Assembly (NCBI GenBank): GCA_028685875.1
Contig: JAQUDD010000007.1
Span: 1-48,681 of the forward strand
DNA from: Candidatus Absconditabacteria bacterium
GTDB lineage: Bacteria > Patescibacteriota > Gracilibacteria > Absconditabacterales > Absconditicoccaceae
DNA length: 48,681 nt
Direction: 5' to 3'
Under the pieces are notes generated by a model. The model made no database searches, was not told the origin of the DNA, and worked only from the letters and a program-made list of their open reading frames with translations. Position 1 is the first letter of the stretch, and each line of letters opens with the position of its first letter. Below, piece by piece: positions 4,722-22,936 of this stretch. The translations under genes were made by a program, and so were the position numbers.

Positions 4722-5921
4722 ATGAAATTAGCAGCTATTCATTGCCGAATTATGCCTGGAGGAGCGCTTGAAGTCTTCAAAGACCTCATCCAACAGGAAC
4801 TTAGAAATGATCCCAAAGCTGAGATCAAAGCTTTTACCATGATCGCAGAAGAAGGGACAAAGTTTTTAGAAGTGCAAATCCCCTGAACAGAAACGCTCAA
4901 AAATATTCCCATTGTCGAAGCTTTACCCAGCTGGATCAGCAGTATCTTTAAATATTTCAGCAGGCGCAAAGTACCTCTCTTTTCCTCACTTTTCGATTAT
5001 CGTAATCTCATCGTTTTTTATCCTTGGATTATGAAACGCCTTTCTCGCAAAGTAAAGAAATTCTGACCGAAGAGAATTGTGATTTCTTCCTTTGCAATCG
5101 CGAAGAATATTGCTTATTGTCATTGCGAGGGATCAAAGTGACCGAAGCAATCCAGTGAAGATATAGATTGCCACGCCTCAGTTCCTTCGGCTCGCAATGA
5201 CGTATATGTAAAACTCTATCTTCATTCGCCGATGCAGTATATTTGGTCGCATCGTGATGAGTATCTTGCAAAATTTAGCGGACGAAAGAAGAAATTATTC
5301 AGTTTTTTAGTGCCTCATTTGCAAACATGGGACAAAAAGTTTACTCACTTCGATGAAGTGCAGTTCAATAGCAAATATACGCAATCTCTCGCAAAAAAAA
5401 TCTATGGAATAAAGGGAAAAGTTGTTTATCCAAAAATCAAAGACAGCTTTTATTACGCAGGAGTGCAACCTAATCCTCAACCCTATTTTGTCTGTGTGGG
5501 AAGATTGGTAACTTTTGTGCGTGAATGTGATGTGATTATCAAGGCATTTAATCAGTTGCAATTACCTTTATTGATGATTGGCTCTGGTCCTGATGAAGCA
5601 TATCTCAAATCCTTAGCAGGCGATAGTATTATTTTCCTTGGACGACTTCCTTCGGAAGAAACTGCAAAAGTCGTCAAAGATGCCTCAGCACTTATCAATC
5701 TCACCAAGGAAAGCTTTGGAATTGGAACAGTTGAAGCCTTGCTTATGGGAGTTCCCGTTATTGGGTATGCAGGTGGAGCAACTCCAGAATTGGTTGATGA
5801 AGAAAGTGGGATCTTGATTGAGAAGAAAACTATCAAAAATCTGGTAGCAGCAGTAGAGGAGTTCCAAGGGAGGACTTGGGAGAGAAAACAGATTTCTGAA
5901 TCTATTAGGAAGAAACTATAG
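4722..5921 (+). CDS. GT4-family glycosyltransferase with an in-frame palindromic element
   Basis: 399 aa, GT-B fold glycosyltransferase of the GT1/GT4 group, probably for cell-surface polysaccharide. The N-terminal part opens MKLAAIHCRIMPGGALEVF. The C-terminal nucleotide-sugar domain has YFVCVGRLV, PLLMIGSGPDE, IIFLGRLPSEE and the donor-binding ESFGIGTVEALLMGVPVIG with the conserved glutamates. TGA codons at about 4884, 5064 and 5148 are read as Gly. A repeat of about 83 bp (5119-5201) is inserted before KLYLHSPMQYIW and adds about 28 residues without breaking the frame. Sugar donor and acceptor are unknown. Downstream lies the SLH esterase gene (35-bp gap). Confidence 0.85.
5119..5201 (+). 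repeat. Palindromic interspersed element inside the glycosyltransferase gene
   Basis: The ends are perfect 11-bp inverted repeats: GTCATTGCGAG (5119-5129) and CTCGCAATGAC (5191-5201). The inside has further paired pieces (CGAAGCAATC, GATTGCC). Similar GTCATTGCGAGG-type elements are common dispersed repeats in other bacteria. Here the element is translated, including a TGA read as Gly, giving a peptide like CHCEGSKGPKQSSEDIDCHA. Confidence 0.85.
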
Positions 5922-22267: not shown

Positions 22268-22288
22268 TTGCAGAGCACTCAGAAAAGT

Positions 22289-22370
22289 GCTGAGGTGATG
22301 GAATGGTATACATGTACGCTTGAGGTGCGTATGCCTTTACGGCTTGAGGGTTCGAGTCCCTTCCTCAGCA
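22289..22370 (+). tRNA. tRNA-Leu (anticodon GAG)
   Basis: Acceptor GCTGAGG pairs with CCTCAGC. The anticodon loop TTGAGGT gives GAG at 22322-22324. A long variable arm typical of class II tRNA and the GGTTCGAGTCC T-arm are present. First of five tRNA genes. Confidence 0.92.
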
Positions 22371-22395
22371 GTTATTCCTCGAAGAACCTTGATAT

Positions 22396-22466
22396 TGGGG
22401 AATCGTCTAATGGTAGGACACCGGACTTTGACTCCGTTTATCCAGGTTCGAATCCTGGTTCCCCAA
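22396..22466 (+). tRNA. tRNA-Gln (anticodon TTG)
   Basis: Acceptor TGGGGAA pairs with TTCCCCA. Anticodon loop CTTTGAC, anticodon TTG at 22428-22430, T-arm CCAGGTTCGAATCCTGG. Confidence 0.92.
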
Positions 22467-22483
22467 CACGTTATTATTGTTAT

Positions 22484-22555
22484 TGCGGAGTAGAGAAACG
22501 GTATCTCGTCGGGCTCATAACCCGAAGGTAGGTGGTTCAATTCCATCCTCCGCAA
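22484..22555 (+). tRNA. tRNA-Met (CAT), initiator-like
   Basis: Acceptor TGCGGAG pairs with CTCCGCA. The anticodon stem has the three G-C pairs of initiators (TCGGG..CCCGA) around CAT at 22515-22517. The D-stem has A11-T24 as in initiators. The first pair is T-A, not the usual C x A mismatch. CCA follows directly at 22556-22558. Confidence 0.85.
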
Positions 22556-22586
22556 CCAAATTTGATTCATACAGAACGCATATTAC

Positions 22587-22659
22587 TCGGGAGTAGCTTA
22601 ATTGGTAGAGCATCAGACTCTGAATCTGAGGGTTCTAGGTTCGAGTCCTAGCTCCCGAA
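22587..22659 (+). tRNA. tRNA-Gln (anticodon CTG)
   Basis: Acceptor TCGGGAG pairs with CTCCCGA. Anticodon loop CTCTGAA, anticodon CTG at 22620-22622. A second glutamine isoacceptor in the same cluster. Confidence 0.9.
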
Positions 22660-22699
22660 AACTTCGTGATACAACAATATAAGAGATAAAGATAGCCGT

Positions 22700-22782
22700 G
22701 CCGGGATGATGGAACTGGTAGACATGCTTGGCTTAGAACCAAGTGCCACACACGGCGTGCAGGTTCAAGTCCTGTTCCCGGT
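22700..22782 (+). tRNA. tRNA-Leu (anticodon TAG)
   Basis: Acceptor GCCGGGA pairs with TCCCGGT (terminal G-T wobble). Loop CTTAGAA, anticodon TAG at 22734-22736. A class II variable arm is present. Confidence 0.92.
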
Positions 22783-22936
22783 ACATTGTAATGGAGTCAA
22801 CTGTTGTGTGAATATTTCAAAGAAGAATTCTGTCTTAAAGGCAGTTTTTTCTTTTTATATTTGAATTCCTCTCATAAAATACTATATTCAGGGTGCCGTT
22901 TTAGGCATATTATTTTATTTATGTGTGTCATCACCG

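Follow-up and report, generated by a model that had tools for sequence, protein, structure and literature searches.

An inverted pair of CGTC-type REP units in frame within a glycosyltransferase gene of an Absconditabacteria genome that reads TGA as glycine

Palindromic repeats that lie in frame within genes are best known from Rickettsia. A stretch of 48,681 nucleotides from a Candidatus Absconditabacteria bacterium, called the window here, raises the questions of what kind of element can sit in frame inside an enzyme gene of this lineage, how it arrived there and what becomes of the enzyme. The window is contig C1 of genome G000 (1.03 Mb in 16 contigs, 99% complete), and at positions 5119-5201 it holds an 83-bp inverted element in frame within a GT4-type glycosyltransferase ORF (4722-5921). 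The features of the locus are:

4722-5921, + strand: GT4-type glycosyltransferase gene, 399 aa under table 25, carrier of the insert (ORF; PF00534, PF13692; GT-B structural matches)
5118-5202, + strand: inverted REP pair with tags outward ("HH dimer"), CGTC/TGTC-tagged (sequence, arms and fold; tag, tail and HH as defined in PMC3733652)
5118-5154, + strand: left REP unit, TGTC-ATTGC...GCAAT-CCA (sequence; stem and tail pattern common to 44 units of the ATTGC type)
5155-5163, no strand: 9-bp spacer separating the tails of the two units (sequence)
5164-5202, - strand: right REP unit, CGTC-ATTGC...GCAAT-CTA (sequence)
5139-5141, + strand: in-frame TGA within the left unit, read as Gly (table 25 ORF)
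5118-5201, + strand: translated insert CHCEGSKGPKQSSEDIDCHASVPSARND, residues 133-160, 28 aa (orthologue comparison, AlphaFold2)

The initial annotation described an element of about 83 bp with perfect 11-bp inverted ends, and the two arms (5119-5129 and 5191-5201) are indeed 11 nt each, 100% complementary and 61 nt apart. The description can be refined, as the element consists of two facing REP-type units and a 9-bp spacer rather than one palindrome; its length is 83 bp between the GTC and GAC ends and 85 bp with the tag bases included (5118-5202). In DNA folding the element strand beats all 200 dinucleotide shuffles (z = -4.8), and in RNA folding it is likewise better than all 200 (z = -3.4). 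The tag-side stretch of the right unit, GTCATTGCGAGCCGAAGGAACTGAGGCGTGGCAATC, has an exact second copy at G000:C11:56012.

It had been noted at the outset that a lack of other genomic copies would speak against a dispersed repeat. G000 has 47 exact copies of the arm, two of these being in the window element, against about 0.5 expected from length alone and 4 for a reversed-pattern control, and two other stem types together add a further 78 occurrences. In a census of units over 426 kb of G000 stretches, picked around arm matches, the stem partners match in 96 of the 100 units having both ends (ATTGC/GCAAT in 44, ATTCT/AGAAT in 28 and ATCCT/AGGAT in 24), and the stem swaps among the three types are compensatory changes. 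Of 124 units, 39 have C and 74 have T before GTC, together 113; the tails are ATCCA or near variants, partly imposed by a search pattern that permitted C/T. Most folded examples show a 5-bp outer stem followed by an internal loop and 2-3 more pairs. Dimers with tags outward were found in the window and at L070:3611, L079:112, L079:3553 and L081:8021, and most exact arms belong to solo units or mixed clusters instead. Units of GTCATTCTGAG also form head-to-tail arrays at G000:C11:25630-26559 and C11:33970-35416, with a spacing of mostly ~77-97 bp.

The arm is distributed patchily, with 2, 0, 0, 0, 3, 0 and 1 exact copies in seven same-genus genomes and as many as 53 in genomes from other genera of the family, a distribution that fits a recent, lineage-specific spread. 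Of 286 genomes sampled from the phylum, 5 contain the full 26-bp unit. The generic unit was found in 29 viral-contig stretches; the exact long subtype of the right unit has no match in the viral contigs searched. A profile search covering one transposase class, Y1 (PF01797), detected no member in the 99%-complete G000 and gave five matches in genome G005. Searched as text in the literature, the arm sequence returned primer lists only.

The carrier gene, of GT4 type, matches PF00534 (Glycos_transf_1, 6.4e-18) and PF13692 (1.8e-17), and the GT-B folds BshA, MshA and PimA are among the best structural matches to its predicted fold. Under table 25 the frame is open over 399 codons, across the element, with in-frame TGAs at 4884, 5064 and 5139; a table 11 reading would stop already at 4884 and again at 5139 inside the element. 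The initial claim that the frame stays open because TGA is Gly therefore holds for the window copy. The AlphaFold2 model has a mean pLDDT of 88.3, and residues 135-158 are its sole segment below 50; the predicted fold places the insert in a loop of the N-terminal domain between the strands 118-123 and 162-167, so that a surface loop, as had been suggested for modelling, is what is predicted.

To the other side of this comparison belong the orthologues, which were taken from 20 genomes and from 27 named records, many of the latter titled candidate division SR1, Absconditabacteria or Gracilibacteria. They have a short loop of variable length between ISSFAIAKN and LYLHSP, and none of them carries the insert peptide at that site. 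The initial annotation had stated that the peptide is without counterpart in the family and that its presence in orthologues of unrelated lineages would tell against an insertion; the 27 named records, with nothing but the short, variable loop, agree with the former, and no orthologue shares the peptide. Furthermore, the same enzyme carries two inverted REP pairs in the preceding loop at L180, and a solo REP unit with its own in-frame TGA in the inter-domain linker at L182, each from another genus. REP inserts thus lie at differing places in these two and in the window copy, and loops of the enzyme have taken such inserts repeatedly and independently.

Does the enzyme bear marks of the insertion? 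The window copy keeps 48 of the 50 columns that are invariant in the other 27 orthologues and departs at two; both Glu of the ESFGIGTVE (EX7E) motif are kept. With G004 as the outgroup, unique changes number 40 in the window copy and 24 in that of G005 (P = 0.06); in the same relative-rate test, the neighbouring malic enzyme has 27 in the window and 36 in G005, and RsmF has 40 and 60. Judging from these counts, the window glycosyltransferase may be under relaxed constraint. Elsewhere in the window, five tRNA genes (Leu, Gln, Met, Gln, Leu) are clustered at 22288-22784.

The glycosyltransferase is one of many carriers. In-frame REP inserts in G000 number 18, across 15 genes whose family was confirmed with Pfam or NCBIfam: MetG (two), MurF, HemW, a second glycosyltransferase, TruD, PcrA, Tex, RlmD, RsmF (three), the window glycosyltransferase, an SNase/LTD protein, Elp3, MurB, KsgA and ComEC. 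When copies are divided between genes and intergenic regions, as had been proposed for the element, 22 of the 41 exact-arm clusters lie within ORFs of at least 200 codons, 11 of these in family-verified genes, and the remaining clusters are intergenic or unverified. The conserved genes with in-frame units show open frames, their functions being predicted from family matches, and the insert peptides vary from site to site, both in sequence and in the orientation and frame in which the repeat is read. In G003, G004 and G006 the flanks of the MurB insert align well and nothing corresponds to the insert itself; a G005 row drawn from a wrong ORF was left out of this alignment. GatB in genome G021 also carries an in-frame copy. 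In RsmF, a different in-frame repeat follows the APGGK motif in G002-G004; this loop after the SAM-binding motif looks like a hot spot, with in-frame repeats that differ by species (L080:6534-8054; L194, L196, L197, L199). A UvrB ORF on the minus strand (L067:7584-9323) bears a REP pair at residues 439-465 and ends, truncated, at 580 aa; the C-terminal helicase part of UvrB was not seen in any frame downstream of it. A second dispersed repeat, giving PLxKGGS or PPxxGG peptides, is seemingly in frame in MetG, Tex, RlmD, MurB and Elp3 (L065, L076, L077, L078, L084). Among solo units in G000 genes, 11 of 12 are antisense to the tag; a general orientation bias was rejected, as the solo units of G021 are mostly in the opposite orientation.

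It may be asked what the altered code contributes. The lineage reads TGA as Gly, so the stops built into the REP sequence (CAATGAC, TCTGAG) become sense and the repeat can be read through in almost all of its frames: the six frames of the 19 inserts, with UvrB counted, make 114, of which 64 are open under table 11 and 103 under table 25. The used frames contain TGA in 13 of the 19 inserts versus 9.0 expected from open frames (P = 0.03), a weak excess whose P value treats the inserts as independent. That TGA as Gly is a requirement for intragenic insertion was rejected, because a table-11 relative, G040, in which TGA is a stop, has in-frame REP units in MurG, RibD and AroE, and in the code-25 genome G021 only 6 of 39 clusters lie in long ORFs. 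Genomes G052 and G042 have no REP units in long ORFs. These comparisons indicate that TGA as Gly widens the choice of frame for inserts and is no precondition for them. A bolder proposal is that the reassignment of TGA to Gly made the REP family almost frame-neutral, and that the repeats, entering genes in nearly any frame, keep supplying the core proteins of SR1/Absconditabacteria-type bacteria with new peptide loops; we regard this as possible but rather doubtful.

For the window locus, we consider it highly probable that a head-to-head CGTC-type REP dimer was inserted into the length-variable loop of the glycosyltransferase after the split from the known same-genus relatives, and that transcription and translation of the gene most likely include the insert, which would form a disordered loop of 28 residues between the predicted strands 118-123 and 162-167. 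The repeats would act as small non-autonomous mobile DNA without a gene of their own. Their insertion would probably be blind to the reading frame, and selection would then retain only those copies that are open, preserve the frame and lie in tolerant loops. We infer in this that the insert is translated in vivo and nearly neutral, and that an enzyme moves the repeats.

It is unlikely that the gene is instead a fresh pseudogene, inactivated by the insert and open only because table 25 has few stops. The mild acceleration of the window copy would agree with decay, as would the truncated UvrB ORF with its REP pair in the same genome; yet all 399 codons are free of stops and frameshifts, the invariant columns are kept at 48 of 50 positions with both EX7E Glu among them, the predicted fold is confident outside the insert, and in-frame copies are also found in genes expected to be essential (MetG and PcrA in G000, GatB in G021). 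The opposite view, that selection maintains the insert as a functional peptide, a loop domesticated from a repeat family that persists in genes since its peptides are useful, could appeal to the presence of such peptides in many housekeeping proteins. However, the peptides differ in sequence as well as in orientation and frame from one site to the next, this one is shared by no orthologue and is predicted to be disordered, and the gene is, if anything, evolving faster, so that we hold this view to be the least probable of all.

Nearly as improbable is a classical MITE, derived by deletion from an insertion sequence, with terminal repeats of 11 bp, a duplicated target site and the parent's transposase as its mover. 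The inverted ends, the absence of coding capacity and the partial, near-identical copy elsewhere in the genome are what such an element would show, but the majority of copies stand as single half-units or in mixed clusters and not as fixed end-to-end elements, and the stems covary within each half-unit. Moreover, no parent insertion sequence was identified, and by eye no consistent target duplication is seen at the dimers inspected. In the glycosyltransferase gene, the hypervariability of the loop masks the exact insertion boundaries and any target duplication. An inserted REP dimer remains the reading that we prefer.

The literature searched returned no report of in-frame palindromic repeats in Patescibacteria, which is not proof of their absence. 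Here they are numerous in the core genes of one Patescibacteria lineage whose genome is small and whose genetic code is changed. This offers a natural setting in which to ask whether the mobile repeats that can live inside genes differ once the code has changed. Annotators should also be warned that orphan loops in such proteomes may often be translated repeats.

CGTC-tagged REPs have been described as having a CGTC or TGTC tag, a stem of 8-9 bp that starts with AT (the first two pairs being A-T and T-A), a loop of 4-5 nt and a CCA tail; dimers with tags outside (HH) predominate, intragenic dimers encode 20-30 residues, and there is no dedicated transposase (PMC3733652). The window element resembles them in its C/TGTC tag, its AT-starting stem, its outward tags and its gene-internal insert of 28 aa, and the G000 units are likewise without a linked dedicated transposase in a search confined to PF01797. 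The left window unit ends in CCA as in the superfamily, whereas the right one ends in CTA. The stem here has 5 bp and a broken inner part, in contrast to the continuous 8-9 bp of the superfamily, and the apical region is longer and variable. The host belongs to Patescibacteria and uses table 25, outside the five phyla listed for CGTC-tagged REPs (PMC3733652).

Four families, CGTC-1 to CGTC-4, have been published in a list that its authors call incomplete, and RPE-6 and RPE-4 of R. conorii belong to CGTC-1 and CGTC-4, respectively (PMC3733652). The parallel with Rickettsia palindromic elements drawn in the initial annotation is sustained by these unit features; RPE-4 and RPE-6 are palindromic and in frame in housekeeping genes, as here, with the superfamily link made through the published description (PMC3733652) rather than through sequence comparison, and uvrB carries a repeat both in Rickettsia (RPE) and in G000. 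Unlike RPE-4 and RPE-6, the repeats here have three stem types and occur singly as half-units, in pairs and in clusters, and two thirds of the used frames have TGA as Gly. Bacterial MITEs and the enterobacterial RU elements (PMC2759123) are similar in being small, non-coding, sometimes intragenic and of inferred mobility, but differ from the element here, for which no IS-like termini or target duplication is established. The element is a CGTC-type REP dimer, a known kind of repeat, and what is new is the phylum, the changed code and the unusually broad set of core genes in which such repeats lie.
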